NCBI GenBank assembly: GCA_902826615.1
Contig: CADEFN010000007.1
Location: forward strand, 195,167-259,166
From: an uncultured Gemmatimonadota bacterium
GTDB taxonomy: Bacteria > Gemmatimonadota > Gemmatimonadetes > Gemmatimonadales > Gemmatimonadaceae
DNA: 64,000 nt
Direction: 5' to 3'
Positions 8,865-39,915 of this stretch are shown one piece after another. The notes under the pieces are model-generated. The model saw only the letters and a list, made by a program, of their open reading frames with translations, was not told the origin of the DNA and did not search any database. The position numbers were made by a program, and so were the translations under genes. The stretch's first letter is position 1; the number at the start of each line of letters is the position of its first letter.

Positions 8865-10127
8865 CTAGCGCCGCAAGCCGATGGGGAGCGCGTCTGCCTC
8901 GCCCCGGCCCTCGCTGGAGATCCTGATAAGGATGCCCACGGCCAGCCAGCAGGCGAGCATGAACGATCCCCCATAGGAGAAAAATGGCAGGGGAATCCCC
9001 GTGATCGGCATGAGGTTGAGGGTCATCCCGATGTTCACGATCACGTGCACAAACCAGCTCCCGAGGAGCCCAAAGGCCACCAGGGACGAGAAGCCATCAT
9101 TGGCCCGCGCCGCCACGCGGATGACCCGCAGGAAGAGGAAGAGGAAGAGCATCAGGGCCAGGCTCACCCCAAGGAAGCCCAGTTCCTCGCCCACCACGGC
9201 GAAAATGAAGTCCGTGGTCTGCTCTGGGAGAAATGCGCCCCGTTTCTGGGTCCCGTCGAGGTAGCCCTTCCCCGTCAGCCCTCCCGAACCGATGGCGATC
9301 TGCGACTGGATGACGTGATATCCCGTGCGCTTTGGGTCCTGTGAGGGATCGAGGAAGACCAGCAACCGGCTCTGCTGATAGGGACTCAACTTCTCCCAGA
9401 GAATTGGGGCCGCGACTCCCATGACGACATTGGCCACGATGAGCACCACCCCTTCGACGACATAGGGCTTGTACCAGAGCACGACGGCGATCAGCACCAG
9501 CAGCCACGCGCCCCAGATTCCGGTGGAGAAGGCCAGCACCAGGGAGATGGCAGGGCTCGCGACCAGCAGGAGGAGGGGCCAGCTCACTCCGGCCCAGAAC
9601 AACATCCCGAAAAAGATGCCGATGAACACCATCCCGGTGCCCAGATCAGGTTGCGCCATGACCAGAACCCAGGGCAACAACACAGCCGCAGCGGGTTGCC
9701 AGAGTTCGAGGAGTGACTTGGGCGGTTCACGACGGGCCGCGAGCATCCGCGCCAGCATGAGGACCACCGCAACCTTCGCCAGCTCGGCGGGCTGCCCCAG
9801 ACGCACTCCACCGATGGTGAGCCAACCCTTCACACTTGCCGCTGTGCCCGCACCCGAACCGAACACCAGTGTGACCAGAAGCAGCACCACGGCCAGCGCG
9901 TACGCGGGTGTGGTCACCCACTCGAGAAAACGCACCGACAAGCGTGAGAGCACAAAGGCTGAAGCAACGGCCACGGCAAACCAGATCAGCTGCCTCTGGT
10001 AGGCGCCCATGTCGGCCGCGATCCGGGCATCGGTCTGCCCCGCAGAATACACCACGGCAATGCCGTAGGCCGACAAGAGCAGCGCGATGATAGCCAGCGG
10101 ATAATCCGCCACAACGCGCTTGATCAA
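8865..10127 (-). CDS. rodA: peptidoglycan glycosyltransferase of the SEDS family
   Basis: Integral membrane glycosyltransferase that polymerises lipid II with PBP2 during elongation. It has about ten hydrophobic segments and the SEDS signatures GWLTIGGVRLGQPAELAK, AQPDLGTGMVFIGIFFG and LMPITGIPLPFFSYGGS. I place the start at a TTG at 10127, which overlaps the mrdA stop (TTGATC contains both) and gives 420 aa. No ATG or GTG is present nearby without running back into mrdA, and the resulting N-terminus MIKRVVADYPLAIIALLLSA is a normal RodA start. A weak GGTGG sequence lies upstream. It is co-translated with mrdA. Confidence 0.93.
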   Translation of the reverse strand: MIKRVVADYPLAIIALLLSAYGIAVVYSAGQTDARIAADMGAYQRQLIWFAVAVASAFVLSRLSVRFLEWVTTPAYALAVVLLLVTLVFGSGAGTAASVKGWLTIGGVRLGQPAELAKVAVVLMLARMLAARREPPKSLLELWQPAAAVLLPWVLVMAQPDLGTGMVFIGIFFGMLFWAGVSWPLLLLVASPAISLVLAFSTGIWGAWLLVLIAVVLWYKPYVVEGVVLIVANVVMGVAAPILWEKLSPYQQSRLLVFLDPSQDPKRTGYHVIQSQIAIGSGGLTGKGYLDGTQKRGAFLPEQTTDFIFAVVGEELGFLGVSLALMLFLFLFLRVIRVAARANDGFSSLVAFGLLGSWFVHVIVNIGMTLNLMPITGIPLPFFSYGGSFMLACWLAVGILIRISSEGRGEADALPIGLRR

Positions 10128-11896
10128 TTCCCCACCACGTTGGCCGGCTCGATGGCGGGCCGCTTGAAATAGTGCGCAATCACCTTGGACGCGATGCGCG
10201 CCGCTGCATAGCCATGTTCTCCCTGCCACAACATCACGGCCACCACAATCTCCGGCTTCTCCTGCGGAGCGAAGCCGACGAACCAGGCGTGATCCTTTTT
10301 GGTTTCGTTCTGCGCGGTGCCGGTTTTCCCTGCGAGCTGTACCCCCTCGATCGCTGCGCTGCCGGCTGTACCACGACCCGACACCACATCACCCATGGCC
10401 GAACGCAACCCGGCGAGTTGGGCAGGCGTGAGGTTCATGATCTTGGTGCGGATTGGATCGCGGGCCACCACCTCAGGCCGTGCGGCGTGTCCGTCGGTGG
10501 CCAGTGCCGAGTAGAATCGCGTCATGTTCAGCACGGTTTGGCTGTTGTAGCCCTGCCCGATGCTGAGATTGAGCGTCTGCCCGTTTGACCAGTTGCCCTT
10601 GCCAAAGACCTTGTCGAAGTACGCTGCCCCGGTGGCCCACACGGGTGTGGCTTCACCTGGAAGGTCAATCCCGGACTTCTCGCCCATCTTGAGTGACACA
10701 CCACCGGCGAGGAGGCGCGACAGCGTAATACGCAGCCCAAGCTGATAGAAGTAGGTGTCACACGACTTGGCGATGGCCTGCGTCAGGTCCACGTTGCCAT
10801 GCCCTGCCGCGCTCCAGCAGCGCCAGTACCGCGAACCGTACTGATACCCACCATTGCACGGCCTCGGCATGGTGGTGGTGAAGTCCACCAGCGAGTCCTG
10901 CAAGGCAATAGCGGCGGTCGCCAGCTTGAAGGTGGACGCCGGTGGATACTTCCCCTGCATCGCCTTGTTGTACATCGGGCGCCGGACCGTATCGGCGTTC
11001 AGCTCCCGCCAGTACTCGGGTGGTATGCCCCCAATAAAGCGGTTGGGGTCAAACGACGGGGAGCTGTGCAACGCGAGCACGGCCCCGGAACGCGGATCCA
11101 TCGCCACGACACCTGCGACCACACTGTCGCCGAGGTAATCGGCAATGAACTTCTGCAGATCGAGGTCGATGTTGGTCTTGAGCGACTTGCCAGGCACGGG
11201 AGGGTCGTCGGCCCGATCGGCCCCATCGCGCACCACCCGACCTCGTGCATCCACTTCGACGAAGCGGCTCCCTTCCTTGCCACGCAGTTCCTTTTCGTAC
11301 TGCCGCTCGAGACCCTGCAGGCCGATCTCCTGCCCCATCTTGTATCCCTTGAACTCCTCGGAGTTGAGATCGTTTTCTCTGATTTGTCCCGTCCAGCCAG
11401 TGAAGGCGGCGACCGCCGGGCCATCGGGATAAAAGCGCTTGGGCGCCGACTGGATAATGAGACTGGGGAACTCGACCCGATGCTCCTCGAGGACCGACAC
11501 CTGGTCGAATGATGCGTCCGCGAGGATAACGGCGGGGCGATTGGGCTCGCGGCGGAAGCGCTGCACGACCCGCGCTATGTCGTCCTCACTCAGCTGAATG
11601 ATGCTGGAGAGACGCTGCAACGAGGCCCGCAATGAGTCGGACGAGGGACTGAGGAGTGAGACGGAGTATCCGGGGACGTTTTCGGCGATGATGGCGCCAT
11701 GCCGGTCGTAGATCACTCCGCGGGCAGCGGGGAGCGGCACCTCGCGCAACCGGTTTCGCTCCGACGACAGCCGATACTGCTCGGTATTGAGCACCTGCGC
11801 CCGGAAAAACGCCGTCGCCAGCAGCCCCAGGGCAACGGCCACCGCACCGCCGGCCACACGCCCGCGCCGCTGGATGTCGTTAGGATGGAAACTCAT
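10124..11896 (-). CDS. mrdA: penicillin-binding protein 2, elongation transpeptidase
   Basis: Class B PBP that cross-links lateral-wall peptidoglycan together with RodA. It has 590 aa with a short cytoplasmic N-terminus and one membrane segment at about residues 15-33. The pedestal domain includes ARGVIYDRHGAIIAEN. The transpeptidase domain has all three motifs: S321-T-F-K324 (YPPASTFKLA), S378-C-D380 in AKSCDTYFYQLG and K524-T-G in LAGKTGTAQN. SCD in place of SxN also occurs in PBP2 proteins. It overlaps mreD and rodA by 4 nt on each side, so the whole rod operon is translationally coupled. Confidence 0.97.
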   Translation of the reverse strand: MSFHPNDIQRRGRVAGGAVAVALGLLATAFFRAQVLNTEQYRLSSERNRLREVPLPAARGVIYDRHGAIIAENVPGYSVSLLSPSSDSLRASLQRLSSIIQLSEDDIARVVQRFRREPNRPAVILADASFDQVSVLEEHRVEFPSLIIQSAPKRFYPDGPAVAAFTGWTGQIRENDLNSEEFKGYKMGQEIGLQGLERQYEKELRGKEGSRFVEVDARGRVVRDGADRADDPPVPGKSLKTNIDLDLQKFIADYLGDSVVAGVVAMDPRSGAVLALHSSPSFDPNRFIGGIPPEYWRELNADTVRRPMYNKAMQGKYPPASTFKLATAAIALQDSLVDFTTTMPRPCNGGYQYGSRYWRCWSAAGHGNVDLTQAIAKSCDTYFYQLGLRITLSRLLAGGVSLKMGEKSGIDLPGEATPVWATGAAYFDKVFGKGNWSNGQTLNLSIGQGYNSQTVLNMTRFYSALATDGHAARPEVVARDPIRTKIMNLTPAQLAGLRSAMGDVVSGRGTAGSAAIEGVQLAGKTGTAQNETKKDHAWFVGFAPQEKPEIVVAVMLWQGEHGYAAARIASKVIAHYFKRPAIEPANVVGN

Positions 11897-12381
11897 GCCG
11901 GGGCCCCCTCAAGCATGTTCCGGAACAACATGATGACGATCAATCCCGTCAGTGCCGTGAGCGCCGCGGCCAGCGGCGACCAGACAAGCAGCTGCGTGAC
12001 CATGGCTCCCGCCCCCATTTGCCGTTCCAGAATGAGGAAGAGGATGTCGTAGACCCACTTCCCGGCAAAAAAGAAAAAGGCGTGCAGGAGCACGTTGTCA
12101 GAGAAAAACACGGCCTTGAGCCACGAGGCGGCAAAACCGATAACGGCGAGCGTAAAGGCTCCGGCACCAAACGAAACAGGCACGAGCGCGTCGCACAGAA
12201 TGCCGACCACAAATCCGAGTGCGGCGGCAGCCCCCGGCCGCAGACGAACGGCCGCAAGAAGGACCGCGAGCACCAGGAAGTCCGCTTCTGCGCGCCACGC
12301 CAGCACCGGCCGCAACGTGAAGTGGAGCACGATGAGCACCAGAAAAAGCAGGATCAGCCGAAGCGCGCGCTGGACACTCAT
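11893..12381 (-). CDS. mreD: rod shape-determining protein MreD
   Basis: Small (162 aa) inner-membrane protein of the elongasome, with about five hydrophobic segments. The first is RLILLFLVLIVLHFTLRP at residues 7-24. MreD is poorly conserved at sequence level. The call rests on size, hydrophobicity, the FLVLAVLLAAVRLRPGAAAALGF-type second and third helices (given here only as a description of residues 34-56) and its place between mreC and mrdA. It overlaps both by 4 nt. Confidence 0.9.
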   Translation of the reverse strand: MSVQRALRLILLFLVLIVLHFTLRPVLAWRAEADFLVLAVLLAAVRLRPGAAAALGFVVGILCDALVPVSFGAGAFTLAVIGFAASWLKAVFFSDNVLLHAFFFFAGKWVYDILFLILERQMGAGAMVTQLLVWSPLAAALTALTGLIVIMLFRNMLEGAPA

Positions 12382-13520
12382 GGCCGACGTGGCGTGGAGT
12401 CGCGCCGAGGAGGCCTGATCACTGGTGGCTGAGCTGAAGGCGCGACCGTCATCGCGCTGCCGCCAGCGGCGATCGAGTCCGCCGCGAGGCTCGCGGCAAC
12501 CGAATCCTTCGCGGCCTGGGTTGCGGCGTCACGAGCGGCGGTAACCGAATCGGCCCGGCGACGTGCATCGACAAGCGCCGCCGCTGCCTGGCGCGTGATG
12601 GAGTCACCCGCCGCGATCACGGTACTCATGACCACCTCCGCCGCGTTCGGGTTGTTCCACAGTGCCGGGAGTTCTTCGCGCACGAGTCCGGGTGCGAGCA
12701 CCAGCACGTTGGAGAGATCCTGCGGCCGTGTAGCCGGGCGTACGAGGTACGTACGCGTCCACTGCTCGGTCGTCTTGAGCTCACCGATCACCGTGCCAAT
12801 CGCCATGCCTTTCGGGAACACGCCACCCAAACCCGAGGAAACAACCAGGGTGCCTTGCTTGAGGACATCGCGGAACGCGACACCGCGCATTTCGAGCAGC
12901 AGCCGTTCAGGTCCCGCACACGAGGACTCATCCATGCCCTCGCAGCTCGCCCCATCCTTGAGGTGCGGGGTCACGATGCCGAACGTTCCCCCGTCGGCTG
13001 ACATCGCCGACACACGGAAATCGGGATGAGACCAGAGAATCACCTGACTGCTGGTCGGCGAAACCGAAGTCACACGTCCCACCACGCCATCGGGCGCAAC
13101 CACGGGACTGTTGGGAACAACCCCGGCGCGCGAACCCACCGTGACCAGCACCGTGTGACTCTCGCCCGTGACCTGCCCATGGAGCGCCTCGGCAGGAACG
13201 AAACCACGGCCCACACGGGGCGACATGGCGAGCAAGCGACGCAGGCGAGCGTTCTCCGCGTCAAGCCCCTGAAGCTCCGTCACCTGGAGAGAGAGAGAAT
13301 CGATCCGCGCGGTCAGCCCCTCCCGCTCCACGAACGCCGCACGCGCGCGCTCGGAGCGCTGCTGGAGGGCCAGCAATGGACGCGAGAGTGTGCGCTGAAA
13401 TCCGGCAGCGATGGCGTCGCGCGCAGGCGCAGGCAGCACGATGGCCAGCAGGGCCAGCAACGTGCAGATCACCAGTAACGCGGCGTCGATTCTGGTACTC
13501 GCCCGAGCAGCCCGCGCCAT
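12378..13520 (-). CDS. mreC: rod shape-determining protein MreC with alanine-rich tail
   Basis: Bitopic periplasmic scaffold linking MreB to PBP2/RodA. It is 380 aa. A membrane segment lies near residues 13-30, then a coiled-coil region (about 55-95), then the two-barrel MreC domain with VGSRAGVVPNSPVVAPDGVVGRV split over residues 127-149 and LVVSSGLGGVFPKGMAIG near 225. After the MreC core, residues about 300-380 form a low-complexity Ala/Asp/Arg then Pro-rich tail (ARRRADSVTAARDAATQAAK, later APSAQPPVIRPPR) not present in typical MreC. The gene starts 9 nt after mreB and overlaps mreD. Confidence 0.95.
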   Translation of the reverse strand: MARAARASTRIDAALLVICTLLALLAIVLPAPARDAIAAGFQRTLSRPLLALQQRSERARAAFVEREGLTARIDSLSLQVTELQGLDAENARLRRLLAMSPRVGRGFVPAEALHGQVTGESHTVLVTVGSRAGVVPNSPVVAPDGVVGRVTSVSPTSSQVILWSHPDFRVSAMSADGGTFGIVTPHLKDGASCEGMDESSCAGPERLLLEMRGVAFRDVLKQGTLVVSSGLGGVFPKGMAIGTVIGELKTTEQWTRTYLVRPATRPQDLSNVLVLAPGLVREELPALWNNPNAAEVVMSTVIAAGDSITRQAAAALVDARRRADSVTAARDAATQAAKDSVAASLAADSIAAGGSAMTVAPSAQPPVIRPPRRDSTPRRP

Positions 13521-13529
13521 GATCCCTCG

Positions 13530-14567
13530 CTAGGCGGAGAGTACCGAGAAGTACTTCTGTTCGTCGTCGAGGATCCGACCGACACCACGCACGACACACG
13601 TCAACGGATCTTCGTCCACGTGGATCGGGAGCCCGGTCTCCTGACTCAACACGACGTCGAGGCCACGGATGAGTGCGCCACCCCCGGTCATCACGATCCC
13701 TCGATCGACGATGTCGCTGGAGAGTTCGGGGGGAGTGATCTCAAGGGCCCGCCGCACCGCGTCAACAATCTGCTGGATGGGCTCCTGGATGGCTTCGCGA
13801 ATTTCCGTGGACTGCACTCGCACGATCTTCGGAATGCCGGAGACGAGGTCGCGCCCCTTCACTTCCATCTCACGCTCCTCACCAACCGGAGCGGCGGACC
13901 CTACGTGAATCTTGATCTGCTCGGCGGTGGGTTCACCGATGAGGAGATTGTAGTTCTTGCGCATGAACTGCACGATCGCGGTGTCCAGCTCATCGCCCGC
14001 CGTGCGAATCGAGGTGTCGGAGACAATCCCCGACAGCGCGATGACGGCGATTTCGGTGGTACCACCACCGATGTCGATGACCATGTTGCCGGTGGGCGTC
14101 TCGATCGGGAGTCCCACGCCGATAGCCGCAGCCATGGGTTCGGCCACCATGAACACTTCTTTCGCGCCAGCGCCGAGCGCAGAATCGCGCACCGCGCGCT
14201 TTTCGACCTCGGTGATACCAGACGGCACACAGACAATCACCCGGGGCTTCATCTTGAACATGCGGTTCTTGATGATGAGCTCCAGGAAATAGCGGAGCAT
14301 CTTCTCGGTGACGTCGAAGTCGGCGATCACGCCGTCCTTCATGGGACGCACCGCAATGATGCCGTCTGGTGTGCGCCCGAGCATGCGCTTGGCTTCGAGC
14401 CCGACCCCTTTCACTTTTTTCGTCTCGCGGTCCATCGCGACGACGGAGGGCTCGTTCAGGACGATTCCCTCACCCTTGACGTAGATCAGGGTGTTCGCGG
14501 TACCAAGGTCAACCGCAATGGCATTAGCGGGGAAGAGTTTCCCCGCCTTGGGGAACGGCCAGCGCAT
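13530..14567 (-). CDS. mreB: actin-like cell shape protein MreB
   Basis: Cytoplasmic actin homologue that guides wall elongation. Its 345 aa is normal. The phosphate 1 motif is [18 protein letters not shown]. The phosphate 2 motif is [15 protein letters not shown] and the adenosine motif is [12 protein letters not shown] near residue 290. It is the first gene of mreBCD-mrdA-rodA. A candidate promoter lies about 70 nt upstream (14638-14666). The window therefore suggests a rod-shaped or elongating cell. Confidence 0.98.
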
Positions 14568-14637
14568 GTATTAGAACACCCCTGGCGCCGGGGCAGGCGC
14601 CGGTGGATTTGTAGGCAACTCGGGTGGTGCAACGTCT

Positions 14638-14666
14638 AAGCTAGCGCTGCACGTGACATGCTGCAA
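14638..14666 (-). promoter_or_regulatory. candidate sigma-70-type promoter for the mre operon
   Basis: On the minus strand TTGCAG (14666-14661) is followed after 17 nt by TAGCTT (14643-14638), 70 nt upstream of the mreB ATG. The same CTAGCTT -10 candidate occurs upstream of rplM and rpsA. The surrounding gene-free stretch 14568-14838 also holds a GGCGCC-GGGGCA-GGCGCC inverted repeat at about 14585-14602, near the mreB start. I see nothing else there. Confidence 0.5.
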
Positions 14667-14838
14667 GGTGTTGCCAGATCACAACCTAGCTCGCTTGCAC
14701 AGGTGCGGCCTGAGGCACCTTTCTCGAGTCGAATTATCCACACGGCGTGCATCCGGACACAGCCTCGACACCCACCGATCTCGCGGCCGCCACGACCCAA
14801 CCGCGGCGCAGCGGCCAGCCCCTCAGGAGACCGACAGG

Positions 14839-15273
14839 CTAACCCGTGCTGCCGAATCCACCGCTGCCACGGGCGGTATCGTTGAGTGACTCACTCGGCT
14901 CCAGCGTGGGGGCTTCGAACCGGGCAAACACCAGCTGCGCAATACGGTCGCCGCGGCGGATGGACACCGGCTCCGCGCCGAGGTTGATGAGAATGACCTT
15001 CAGTTCGCCCCGATAGTCCGGATCGATGGTGCCCGGTGCGTTAGGCACACTGAGTCCGTGCTTGAGCGCGAGCCCCGATCGCGGCCGCACCTGCATTTCC
15101 ATACCACTCGGCAGCGCAAAGGCAAACCCTGTTCCCACCGCTCGACGCTCGTTAGGCGCGAGCACCAGATCGGGTTCGGCCGAACACACGTCGTACCCCG
15201 CTGCCTCCGCCGACTGTCGAGCCGGCAGGGGCAGATCGGGGTTGTGCGGAAGACGGAGGATGCGGACAGACAT
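14839..15273 (-). CDS. dut: dUTP diphosphatase
   Basis: Trimeric dUTPase that hydrolyses dUTP to dUMP and keeps uracil out of DNA. The ATG at 15273 gives 144 aa, typical. The five motifs are visible: [13 protein letters not shown] (1), [12 protein letters not shown] (2), [13 protein letters not shown] (3), [11 protein letters not shown] (4) and the C-terminal [11 protein letters not shown] (5), which closes over the active site. A longer upstream start would run into the ald stop region and lacks similarity. It lies 25 nt after ald. Confidence 0.97.
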
Positions 15274-15298
15274 CCGGGAGTGGCCGGCGGGAATATCG

Positions 15299-16414
15299 TT
15301 AGGCAAGGAATCCGCTGGCCTCGTGATTCGGCAAGCCAAACGCCTCGGCCACACCGGGATACGTCACCTTGCCGTCAATCATGTTCAGCCCCTTGAGCAG
15401 CGCGGGGTTCTCCCTGAGCGCGCGCTGCCAGCCCTTGTTGGCCAGCTGCAAGGCATACGGCAGCGTGGCATTAGTCAGGGCCAGCGTGGAAGTGCGTGGC
15501 ACCCCACCGGGCATGTTGGCCACGCCGTAGTGAATCACGCCGTCCACGACGTAGGTGGGGTTTTCGTGGGTGGTGGCGTGAATGGTCTCCACGCATCCGC
15601 CCTGATCGATCGCCACGTCCACAATCACCGAGCCCGGGCGCATCTTCTTGAGGTCTTCACGGCGCACGAGCTTGGGCGCCTTGGCTCCCGGAATGAGCAC
15701 GCCGCCCACCACGAGATCGGCGGTCGCAATCTGCTCCAGCACATTGTGCCGGTTGGAGAAGATCAGCTGCACGTTGGCCGGCATCACGTCCGACAGGTAG
15801 CGCAGGCGCTCCAGGGAGATGTCGAGGATCACGACCTTGGCACCCATGCCAGCGGCCATCTTGGCGGCGTTGATACCCACAATGCCACCACCGAGGATGA
15901 CCACCTTGGCCGGCGGCACGCCCGGAACACCACCCAGCAGCACACCGCGCCCGCCATACAACTTCTCGAGGTACTTGGCCCCTTCCTGCACGGCCATGCG
16001 ACCCGCCACCTCGGACATCGGGGTCAGCAGGGGCAGCTCACCGTTAGGCAGCTCGACCGTTTCGTAGGCAATGCAGGTGGCCCCGGCATCCATGTGCGCA
16101 CGGGTGAGCTTTTCGTCAGCGGCAAAATGGAAGTAGGTGAAGATCACCTGCCCACGCTTCATGCGTTTCCATTCAGGCTCGATCGGCTCCTTCACCTTGA
16201 TGATCATGTCGGCCTTGGCCCACACCGCATCGACGCTCGCCTCGACCGCGGCGCCAACATCGAGGTAGTCCTGGTCACTGAAGCCGCTACCCTCTCCACC
16301 TCCCTTCTCCACCACTACCTGGTGGCCCGCCGCAATCAGCGCCTCGGCGCCAGCCGGAACGACGGCAATGCGGTTCTCATTCGTCTTGATCTCTTTCGGT
16401 ACGCCGATCAGCAT
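15299..16414 (-). CDS. ald: alanine dehydrogenase
   Basis: NAD-dependent interconversion of L-alanine and pyruvate plus ammonium. It is 371 aa, as expected. It begins [20 protein letters not shown], the standard N-terminal pyruvate-binding region. The catalytic lysine and histidine region is [10 protein letters not shown] and FTYFHFAAD. The Rossmann motif [18 protein letters not shown] sits near residue 175, and the tail has [16 protein letters not shown]. It sits 24 nt after the M16 peptidase gene. Its stop codon TAA lies inside one copy of the window-wide CGTTAGG motif. Confidence 0.96.
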
Positions 16415-16438
16415 GGTCGTGGGTGTCAGAGTGAAAGG

Positions 16439-36700: not shown

Positions 36701-38211
36701 GTCGAACGGAGCCCTTCGCGACGCGCCGCTTGCTGCCAGGCATTAGTTACTGGCGTCGTCGCGACCGCGCCTGTCGAGGCACCCCGGGTTCCCCGGTCAC
36801 GGCTCGCCAGCAGGGCACCGGCAGCCGCCGCCACGCGCATGATGTCTTCGGGGGCCCGCTGCCCGACCAGCTGTGGCAGCTTGCGCTCGAGCCACTGAAT
36901 TTCGATGTCACCGCGGCGAAAGTCCTCGTCCTCCATCATGCGCAAATGGAACTCACGCGACGACTCGATCCCGACGATGGTGAGTTCCTCCAGCGCCCGG
37001 TGCATGCGTGCAATCGCCTGGTCACGTGTATTCGCCCAGACAATGAGTTTTGCGAGCATGGGATCGTAGTGCAGACCCACGACACTCCCCGACTCCACGC
37101 CGCCATCCCATCGCACCCCCGGGCCGGTCGGCACATGCAGATACTCGATGCGACCCGTCGAGGGCAGGAACCCATTGGCGGGATCCTCACTCGTTATGCG
37201 ACACTCGATGGACCATCCGCGCGGTGTGAGATCGGCCGGAAACGGCAGTCGTTCGCCTGAGGCTACACGAATCTGCCACTGGACGATGTCGATCCCGGTG
37301 ACCAATTCCGTCACCGGGTGCTCCACCTGCAACCGGGTGTTCATCTCCAGGAAGTAGTAGTTCCCTTCCCGGTCGAGGAGAAACTCGCAGGTGCCGGCGT
37401 TGACATATCCTGCGGCGCGCGCGGCAGCCACGGCGGTGGCACCCATGCGTTTGCGCAACTCAGGCGATACCGCCACCGAGGGCGCCTCTTCGATCATCTT
37501 CTGGTGCCGACGCTGCACCGAACACTCCCGTTCCCCGAGCGACAGCACGGTTCCGTGCTGATCGGCCAGCACCTGGATCTCGACGTGACGCGGACCCACG
37601 ATGTACTTCTCGACATACACGGTGTCATCGCCAAAGGCGTTCTTCGCCTCGCGACGCGCGGCATCCAATGCCCCCGCCATCTCACCGGGCTCACGCACGA
37701 CGCGCATGCCCTTCCCGCCCCCGCCGGCCGCCGCCTTGAGCAACACCGGATACCCGAACCGCTGGGCGATCTCGAGTGCTTCGGCGGCGTCTTGCAATCC
37801 CTCGGTTGTTCCTGGGACTACGGGCACACCAGCCGCGATCGCCAGCTGACGCGCGGCGGTTTTGCTGCCGAGTGCGGCGATGGCTTCCGGTGGTGGACCG
37901 ACGAAGATGAGACCGGCGTCACGTACGGCGCGCGAAAACCACTCGCGCTCACTCAGAAAGCCATACCCGGGATGGATCGCCTCGGCGCCGACACGTTTGG
38001 CCACTTCGATGATGTGATCGCCCTTGAGATAACTCTCACTGGAAGGCGCCGGCCCGATGTTCACGGCCTCGTCGGCGGCACGCACATGCGGCGCCTGCGC
38101 GTCGGCGTCTGAGTAGACCGCCACGGTACGCACCCCCAGCTCACGGCACGCGCGAATGATGCGGAGGGCGATTTCGCCGCGATTGGCGATGAGGAGTTTG
38201 GAGATCATCAC
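36697..38211 (-). CDS. accC: biotin carboxylase subunit of acyl-CoA carboxylase
   Basis: ATP-grasp enzyme that carboxylates biotin. It is 504 aa, about 55 longer than E. coli AccC. It has KLLIANRGEIALRIIRA, AIHPGYGFLSER, the ATP loop LKAAAGGGGKGMRVV, ECSVQRRHQKMIEEAPS and NTRLQVEHPVTELV. After the core (ending near QLVGQR, residue 454) is a tail DIMRVAAAAGALLASRDRG and more, where fused proteins carry the BT linker. Since the carrier is a separate gene downstream, the complex is split. The start may be either of two adjacent ATGs. It overlaps the methyltransferase gene by 4 nt. Confidence 0.93.
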   Translation of the reverse strand: MMISKLLIANRGEIALRIIRACRELGVRTVAVYSDADAQAPHVRAADEAVNIGPAPSSESYLKGDHIIEVAKRVGAEAIHPGYGFLSEREWFSRAVRDAGLIFVGPPPEAIAALGSKTAARQLAIAAGVPVVPGTTEGLQDAAEALEIAQRFGYPVLLKAAAGGGGKGMRVVREPGEMAGALDAARREAKNAFGDDTVYVEKYIVGPRHVEIQVLADQHGTVLSLGERECSVQRRHQKMIEEAPSVAVSPELRKRMGATAVAAARAAGYVNAGTCEFLLDREGNYYFLEMNTRLQVEHPVTELVTGIDIVQWQIRVASGERLPFPADLTPRGWSIECRITSEDPANGFLPSTGRIEYLHVPTGPGVRWDGGVESGSVVGLHYDPMLAKLIVWANTRDQAIARMHRALEELTIVGIESSREFHLRMMEDEDFRRGDIEIQWLERKLPQLVGQRAPEDIMRVAAAAGALLASRDRGTRGASTGAVATTPVTNAWQQAARREGLRST

Positions 38212-38222
38212 AGCGGAGGGAC

Positions 38223-38276
38223 GGGAAGCACGAGTAGCACGGGAAGCACGAGTAGCACGGGAAGCACGAGTAGCAC
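38223..38276 (+). repeat. three exact 18-bp tandem repeats (six 9-bp units)
   Basis: GGGAAGCACGAGTAGCAC is repeated exactly three times. Each unit is two related 9-mers (GGGAAGCAC, GAGTAGCAC). It lies just upstream of accC on the transcribed strand. A related array in inverted orientation begins 43 bp away at 38320. Confidence 0.95.
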
Positions 38277-38319
38277 GGGGCCAGCCGAGAACTCACAGGT
38301 TTGCCAAATCGCGGCGGTC

Positions 38320-38364
38320 GTGCCTCTCGTGCTTCTCGTGCTTCTCGTGCCTCCCGTGCTTCCC
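38320..38364 (-). repeat. five 9-bp tandem units, inverted to the 38223 array
   Basis: Read on the minus strand the 45 bp are GGGAAGCAC, GGGAGGCAC, GAGAAGCAC, GAGAAGCAC, GAGAGGCAC. The array touches the pccB stop codon. Together with 38223-38276 it can form a long imperfect hairpin in the pccB-accC transcript. Confidence 0.95.
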
Positions 38365-39915
38365 TCAGAGTGGCAGATTGCCATGTTTCTTGGGCGGATT
38401 GCGATCGCGTTTGCCTTGCAGCGTGTCCAGTGCATCGATGAGCCGGGGGCGGGTGTCACGCGGATCGATGATGTCGTCGACGTAACCGCGTGAGGCGGCG
38501 ACATACGGATTGGCAAACTTCTCGGTGTATTCCGCCACCCGTTCATCCATCGCCTTGGCCGGGTCCGGTGACTCAGCGATTTCCTTGCGGAAGAGGATTT
38601 CGACAGCGCCCTTGGGTCCCATGACCGCAATTTCCGCGGAGGGCCATGCCACGTTGAAGTCGCCCCGGATATGCTTGGAGCTCATGACGTCGTACGCACC
38701 CCCGTATGCCTTGCGGGTGATGACGGTGAGCTTGGGGACGGTGGCCTCGCAATAGGCATAGAGCAGTTTGGCCCCGTGCCGGATGATGCCTCCATGCTCC
38801 TGCCCCACACCGGGGAGGAAACCCGGCACGTCCTCGAAGGTCACCAGCGGAATGTTGAAGGCGTCGCAAAAGCGGACGAACCGCGCGGCCTTGACCGATG
38901 CGTTGATATCCAGAACACCAGCGAGAACGGCAGGCTGGTTGGCCACGATGCCCACGCTGTAGCCGCCGAGGTGCGCAAATCCGCAGAGGATGTTGCCGGC
39001 ATAATCCTTGTGGACCTCGTAGAACTCACCGTCGTCGACGACCCGCGCGATGACCTCGTGCATGTCGTACGGCTTGCTGGCATGCTCGGGCACCACGTCC
39101 AGGAGCGACTCATCCCGGCGATCGCGGGGGTCGGTGCCCGGCCCCCGTGGCGGCTCGCCAAGATTGTTCTGGGGGATATAGCGGAACAACTCGCGAATGG
39201 CCTGCAGACTCTGCAACTCGGAGTCATGCGCGAAGTGCGCCACCCCTGAGGTCGCGGCGTGGGTGTCGGCACCGCCGAGACGCTCCATCGTAACGTCTTC
39301 GTGCGTGACCGTCTTCACCACGTTAGGTCCGGTGACAAACATGTACGACGAGCCACGGACCATGTAAACCAGGTCGGTGATGGCCGGCGAGTATACCGCG
39401 CCGCCAGCACATGGGCCGAGGATAGCCGAAATCTGGGGGATCACACCGGAAGCGAGTGTGTTGCGCAGGAAGATCTCGGCATACCCTCCAAGCGAGACCA
39501 CTCCTTCCTGGATTCTCGCCCCGCCTGAGTCATTGAGACCGATGACCGGAGCCCCGTTACGCACCGCCAGGTCCATGACCTTGCAGATCTTCTCCGCAAA
39601 GGCCTCGGAGAGCGACCCACCAAAAACGGTGAAGTCCTGCGAGAAGACATAGACCAGCCGGCCATCGATCCGGCCGTGCCCGGTGACCACGCCGTCGCCA
39701 TACACCTTCTGGCCTTCCAGCCCGAAGTCGGTTGAGCGGTGGGTCACGAAGCGGTCGTATTCCACGAACGACCCCTCGTCCAGGAGGACGTCGAGTCGTT
39801 CCCGGGCCGAGAGCTTGCCCTTGTCATGCTGGGCCTTGATGCGAGCGGCGCCGCCCCCCTCTTCCGACTGGGCGCGGCGCGCTTCGAGCAGATCGAGTTT
39901 TTCGCGAAGCGTCAT
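38365..39915 (-). CDS. acyl-CoA carboxylase carboxyltransferase subunit (propionyl-CoA type)
   Basis: Transfers CO2 from carboxybiotin to an acyl-CoA. The 516-aa protein starts at ATG 39915 with [14 protein letters not shown], the family start. The N-terminal crotonase-like domain has [56 protein letters not shown] and [17 protein letters not shown]. The C-terminal domain has [20 protein letters not shown] and [17 protein letters not shown]. This resembles PccB of propionyl-CoA carboxylase. An acetyl-CoA or broad specificity is possible. It is separated from accC by 153 nt of repeats and is divergent from sthA. Confidence 0.93.

Follow-up and report, generated by a model that had tools for sequence, protein, structure and literature searches.

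Facing arrays of a 9-nt repeat between pccB and accC belong to a dispersed, genus-restricted family of intergenic repeats in Gemmatimonadaceae

The pccB–accC gap

The window, which is the whole stretch of 64,000 nucleotides analysed here (contig CADEFN010000007.1, positions 195,167 to 259,166), comes from an uncultured Gemmatimonadota bacterium and carries pccB and accC on its minus strand. pccB encodes a carboxyl transferase (PF01039; 38365..39972, stop codon at 38365-38367) and accC encodes a biotin carboxylase (PF00289, PF02786, and PF02785; 36697..38211). A gap of 153 nt (38212-38364) lies between the accC start and the pccB stop. The start region of accC is conserved in relatives and offers two start candidates on the minus strand, GTG at 38211 and ATG at 38208 (38206-38208). 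Since the C-terminus of PccB has the same length as in relatives, the pccB stop is native.

The gap is filled by two arrays of 9-mers in inverse orientation, as noticed in the initial annotation of this DNA. A 23-nt repeat pattern matched the window eight times compared with a mean of 0.04 matches in shuffled sequence, and the window contained no further RGCACGRGW array besides this pair. The right arm (38316..38360, minus strand) is sense to pccB and consists of five RGCACGRGA units. The 4 nt that separate its first unit from the pccB stop (38361..38364, minus strand) read GGGA and represent a truncated form of the cap AGGGGCRGA described below. The left arm (38218..38280, plus strand) is antisense to accC and comprises seven 9-mers including imperfect end units. 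Its cap AGCGGA (38212..38217, plus strand) adjoins the accC start, and the arm begins 9 nt from the ATG. TRF detected 3.3 copies of an 18-bp unit with 100% identity at 38221-38279 in this arm. The arm edges leave a loop of ~35 nt (38281..38315). The observation made in the initial annotation is thus confirmed. Its consensus G(G/A)G(A/T)(A/G)GCAC is a rotation of RGCACGRGW, and its 43-nt loop is revised to ~35 nt. The RNA of the whole gap is predicted to fold at -98.5 kcal/mol (z -10.7). Rfam models assigned only a tRNA in the window and gave no match in the gap.

Distribution, anatomy, and placement of the repeat family

The genome of the window (G000) was searched with a 24-nt three-unit pattern allowing up to two mismatches, and the same pattern read backwards served as control. 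This revealed 133 + 145 = 278 matches compared with 3 + 2 = 5 in the control. The suggestion that the array might be a chance repeat unique to this locus is therefore contradicted, even though relatives lack an array between pccB and accC: G152, G153, and G154 of the same genus have a short gap that contains no array, G151, also of this genus, has no array after pccB, and eight loci of pccB relatives assigned to Gemmatimonadota or close to it contained no arrays. In a set of 179 genomes from the taxonomic family, the 24-nt pattern matched 164 times in G151, 55 times in G153, 11 times in G152, and once in G154, and at most six times in each genome outside the genus. A four-unit pattern with up to three mismatches was matched in 15 of 395 genomes of the phylum. 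Three of these belong to the genus (G000 with 202 matches, G153 with 31, and G152 with 5; G154 had none and G151 was outside that draw), and the other twelve contained at most five matches each. The 9-mer family is thus abundant in only one genus of the phylum. No description of it was found in the open-licence PMC literature. The graded density within the genus, dense in G000, moderate in G151 and G153, sparse in G152, and nearly empty in G154, provides a basis for comparison.

We identified 52 elements with 82 arrays in 1.65 Mb of G000, in pieces that were picked for a pattern match except for the fully tiled contig C2 and the blind tiles L098-L110. Contig C2 (947 kb) contained 25 arrays compared with 4 in the reversed sequence. 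Thirteen of its elements carry three or more units in an array, which extrapolates to ~80 elements per G000 genome. Single 9-mers outside arrays were at background in C2 (49 compared with 48 in the reversed sequence), indicating that the unit is enriched in arrays only. DNA uptake sequences of Neisseria and Pasteurellaceae are also short motifs that occur as inverted pairs downstream of genes, and this candidate was rejected because the 9-mer is not over-represented singly. None of the arrays in the four stretches from viral contigs comes after a called gene end. The sister-species loci were picked for matches, except for the orthologue loci and the G154 tiles. Orthologues of array-bearing G000 genes carried an array in 3 of 13 cases in G151, 2 of 6 in G153, 0 of 3 in G152, and 0 of 13 in G154, which indicates that single locations are not strongly conserved.

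The basic unit of the family is a single arm, which consists of a short 5' cap and usually four near-identical 9-mers, followed by nothing conserved. The cap consensus AGGGGCRGA is often truncated, and its final GA is near-invariant (of 74 arrays, 72 have the G and 70 have the A). Among the 82 arrays, 45 contain four units, 8 contain two, 8 contain three, and 10 contain five; longer arrays have six units in 6 cases, seven in 4, and eight in 1. The two-unit arrays (8/82) were excluded from the base counts. In G151-G153, the cap is often close to CCAGGGCGA and the arrays tend to sit farther from the stop.

The matches of the family are close to its consensus. When C2 matches with up to five mismatches were counted, 15 had none, 6 had one, 1 had three, 3 had four, and 1 had five. 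Thus, 21 of 26 matches had at most one mismatch, none occurred at six to eight mismatches, and no decay tail was seen; the reversed control in this test also catches reversed real arrays. The remaining variation is concentrated at two positions. In C2, the minor base reached a frequency of 0.44 at position 1 and 0.42 at position 7, compared with a mean of 0.039 at the other seven positions. Position 7 is likewise A/G-dimorphic in G151, G152, and G153, and positions 2, 3, and 9 drift between species. Since neutral ageing would blur all positions, either the seven fixed positions are under selection or the source was ambiguous at two positions. At the variable positions, a unit predicts almost nothing about the one beside it: adjacent units agreed in 0.530 of cases at position 1 (0.512 expected) and in 0.582 at position 7 (0.517 expected), and 57 different four-unit A/G patterns were found among 66 arrays. 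A coding role, in which the unit reads GCA CGR GAR and both variable sites are synonymous, was set aside because position 4, which is also a third codon position, is fixed.

Genes were called with a codon-usage ORF caller made for this analysis, and placement was scored relative to these calls. Of the arrays, 58 lie near a gene end on the same strand; 48 of these start 2-8 nt past the stop, and 25 start exactly 7 nt past it. When array-bearing genes were compared with their orthologues, 20 of 23 stop within three residues of the point where the relative stops and the other 3 are longer, indicating that the arrays follow native gene ends. About ten arms face a gene start in antisense orientation, several of them at 9-12 nt like the left arm at accC. 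Of 49 elements, 15 lie in convergent gaps, 31 in tandem gaps, 2 in divergent gaps, and 1 inside a called gene; this classification omits 3 of the 52 elements, which lack a three-unit array. The 13 C2 elements occupy seven convergent and six tandem gaps but no divergent gap, although C2 offers 106 convergent, 502 tandem, and 107 divergent gaps (convergent versus rest, p 0.001). The polarity of two-arm elements is invariant, with a plus arm followed by a minus arm in 25 of 25, and single arms in tandem gaps are sense in 16 of 20. Arrays also occupy four gaps of 89-132 nt within the S10/spc operon, namely tuf-rpsJ, rpsJ-rplC, rplB-rpsS, and rpsN-rpsH (L093, G000:C4:160001-180000, 8902-16431).

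We also considered whether the element supplies the stop codon. TAG is used by 28 of 48 array-bearing genes compared with 205 of 617 C2 genes, yet the orthologue test was not convincing: a non-TAG stop of the relative was changed to TAG in 8 of 16 genes with arrays and in 31 of 104 without, and this candidate was rejected. At three C2 sites (329129, 416210, and 755031), genes that run past or lack their native end read into the array and acquire repetitive C-terminal tails. At C2 800771-800869, the loop between the arms contains a hairpin of ordinary appearance followed by a T-run, which gives the impression that arms were added on both sides of a native terminator.

Folding and origin of the arrays

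Folding was compared between two-arm elements, single-arm elements, and control regions. For each of the 25 two-arm elements, z was -5.8 or lower. Median z was +0.37 among the 24 single-arm elements, of which only 4 were below -3, and -0.28 among 40 control post-stop regions, of which 6 were below -3. The two arms of an element agreed at 0.454 of the variable positions, compared with 0.509 when pairs were shuffled. With the register chosen for best agreement, the values were 0.574 and 0.642, respectively, and 99.5% of shuffles were as high or higher. Compensatory matching is therefore absent, and identity between facing arms seems, if anything, to be avoided. Since most single-arm elements (20 of 24) fold no better than chance, arms of the same element are unmatched, and arrays sit inside the S10 operon, the hairpin looks like a by-product of two facing arms.

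These results bear on the possibility that the elements act as REP/BIME-like RNA hairpins, which would end transcription, protect the 3' end, or stall or insulate ribosomes after the stop, in the manner of a REP located within 15 nt of it or of a ribosome termination structure. The folding of every paired element (25/25) is expected of such a hairpin, and the arm start falls inside the footprint of a terminating ribosome. In the cited parts of published accounts, near-stop REPs act on translation (PMC12306157) and stable post-stop structures are widespread (PMC7518266). Against this, 24 of 49 elements have a single arm and 20 of these have z above -3, arms within an element are less alike than arms of different elements, and arrays occupy gaps of the S10 operon, where termination would be costly. 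The arrays in the four S10 operon gaps speak against a terminator in particular, and no GC-rich hairpin followed by a T-run was found at the arms. We therefore consider this function unlikely for the family. The role of mRNA stabiliser between subunits, which the initial annotation had raised, is possible at pccB-accC but cannot be the common role of the whole family.

The arrays could also be microsatellites formed in place by polymerase slippage and tolerated in non-coding gaps. Slippage would produce exact 18-bp units like those seen in the left array at pccB-accC, and a few longer arrays exist, with up to 13 units in the sister species. However, slippage does not explain why the unit and the cap are common to many loci, why 57 A/G patterns occur among 66 arrays with weak identity between neighbouring units, why the copy number peaks sharply at four, or why the mismatch counts show no decay tail. 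The order of the units in G151 is a further argument against it. In 18 arrays of four or five units, all 22 units of the T2 type occupied one of the first two places, whereas 5000 shuffles placed a mean of 9.4 and at most 17 there. The ordered T2 units suggest that whole ordered arms were copied. Slippage is thus very improbable as the origin of the family, and the recent expansion that had been deduced from the exact 18-bp units holds for the left arm of this locus but not for the family, as the near-independence of neighbouring units and the unit order in G151 indicate.

Alternatively, both arms may be the terminal inverted repeats of one small MITE-like transposon. This would account for the fixed polarity, the caps at both outer ends, the size of ~110 bp of many elements, and local tandem copies in G152 (L209). 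It is difficult to reconcile with the arms of one element being no more alike than random pairs, with the many solo arms, and with loops that appear unrelated by eye in the elements compared, one of which (C2 800771) holds the terminator-like hairpin. A MITE-like origin is accordingly quite improbable. The tandem copies in L209 (G152:C224, 1461-1833) are three two-armed elements of ~125 bp, and such a local duplication was not seen in the G000 pieces examined.

The Y1/RAYT transposase (PF01797) was detected in 0 of 5 genus genomes, and the same search was positive in 5 of 14 controls. The classification as a novel REP-like family is accordingly upheld in part: the elements are dispersed and intergenic, lie at gene 3' ends, and form facing inverted pairs, but a single copy has no palindrome and no fold and the genus lacks a detectable Y1/RAYT gene. 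A reverse-transcriptase source was also rejected. PF00078 was matched once in G000, just over the Pfam cut-off (G000:C25:4802-5269, L260), and in none of the four sister genomes, and it therefore does not track the arrays; the G151 (74%) and G153 (82%) genomes are incomplete.

Proposed reading and comparison with known systems

The window feature can be described as a facing pair of copies of a short repeat that is dispersed in the genome and restricted to one genus. The reading that we prefer, to which we assign a probability of about 0.4, is that the units of each array serve as successive recognition sites for a factor that binds DNA or RNA sequence-specifically, and that the arrays are dispersed by copying. 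Copies border coding regions, their caps adjoining the boundary and their G-rich strands running into the gap, and most of them lie just past a stop. They probably arise by copying of an ordered arm rather than by slippage, with machinery other than a detectable Y1/RAYT enzyme. The putative factor would tolerate either purine at positions 1 and 7, and selection for its binding would keep the other seven positions intact. The protein-binding array that the initial annotation had listed among its options fits the intact 9-mer consensus as judged from sequence. At pccB-accC, the facing arms are predicted to form a transcript hairpin of ~45 bp, which plausibly stabilises the pccB mRNA and insulates accC translation as a secondary effect.

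Several observations weigh against the binding-site reading. The start-adjacent antisense arms do not fit a pure 3'-end role, and the change of the unit between sister species is odd for one conserved factor. Orthologous gene ends mostly lack the array (0 of 13 in G154 and 3 of 13 in G151 carry one). In addition, recent copying from a degenerate source may account for the intact consensus in place of purifying selection. Seven intact and two nearly random positions at dozens of loci would imply either a strong binding factor or copying with programmed ambiguity.

A second repeat came to light in G151, where (GGGATTC)4 lies directly behind the stop of the orthologue of one array-bearing gene. 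A three-unit GKGATTC pattern gave 81 matches in G151 and 0 in the other four genus genomes. In the G151 loci read (L265-L276 and L238), where the arrays are close to the published GGGAATC of Xanthomonas, 13 of 17 arrays have four units, adjacent pairs run plus then minus in 10 of 10, and a cap near AGGGCC is common. A same-strand stop lies within -10 to 60 nt in 7 of 17, which is weaker than for the G000 9-mer. G152, G153, and G000 contain a further heptamer, GGCAGAY, at high frequency. The reversed control is invalid for this heptamer because its reverse is nearly one of its own rotations. Three short arrays of this type lie right behind stops near 741508, 750882, and 936481 of C2.

These families raise the idea that the element class is set by architecture rather than by sequence, and that a template-directed enzyme adds G-rich repeats to the 3' ends of breaks in gaps in the fashion of telomerase. 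The class would then be defined by a cap, about four short units with two-base ambiguity, and a G-rich strand running 3' from a coding edge, and unrelated units (the 9-mer of G000, GKGATTC of G151) would fill the same layout in sister species. Templating would be ambiguous at two positions and would add about four repeats per event. Such addition would yield the fixed polarity, the independence of the arms, the intact but dimorphic consensus, and the replacement of the gap up to the coding edges. We regard this scenario as a long shot.

The family can be compared with several known systems. Published ribosome termination structures, as presented in the part of the account cited, share with the 9-mer family a position directly after stops, and the paired arms are likewise very stable (PMC7518266). 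The family differs in that single arms are unstructured and in being a sequence family, more than a fold. REP/BIME elements, in the cited portions of their descriptions (PMC3733652 and PMC12306157), resemble it in being dispersed downstream of genes, in tandem and convergent gaps, and as pairs of opposite orientation. They differ from it because a single copy of the 9-mer arm contains no 20-40 bp palindrome and its cap is no hairpin tagged with GTAG or CGTC. REPs of the CGTC type are, according to the part cited, likewise without a dedicated transposase (PMC3733652).

The closest layout is that of the heptamers GGGAATC and GGGGA(C/T)T of Xanthomonas and Nostoc reported by Rehm et al. (2015), whose function was left open in the sections cited (PMC4692102). 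As portrayed there, these repeats are dispersed intergenic tandem arrays with a preference for four units, sense near stops and antisense near starts, forming facing pairs, and few lie between divergent genes; the G000 9-mer shares all of these features. The rationale given in the same sections for four units is quadruplex formation (PMC4692102). Four G-tracts folding into a G-quadruplex on the sense strand would suit the four-unit mode, the strand, the stop proximity, and the facing pairs, which the family has in common with the GGGAATC repeats. The tracts themselves, however, are poorly kept. Of 74 arrays, only 17 have four G3 tracts with loops of up to 9 nt when the cap is counted and 11 when it is not, only 13 of 66 arrays contain GGG in each of their first four units compared with 8.1 expected by independence, and many units of the G151 heptamer read GTG. 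A quadruplex is thus highly doubtful, and since the two sister-species families keep four units and polarity but often lose G-tracts, the number four needs another cause. Compared with the repeats of Rehm et al. as characterised in the cited sections, the 9-mer family also has an unrelated 9-nt unit (RGCACGRGA), a conserved cap, two A/G-dimorphic positions, and a start mostly 2-8 nt past the stop, and it occurs in another phylum. The G000 9-mer family is therefore of the Rehm type in layout, but is no member by unit sequence or G-tracts. The GKGATTC heptamer of G151 is, by contrast, very near the published unit GGGNATC as given in the cited sections (PMC4692102).
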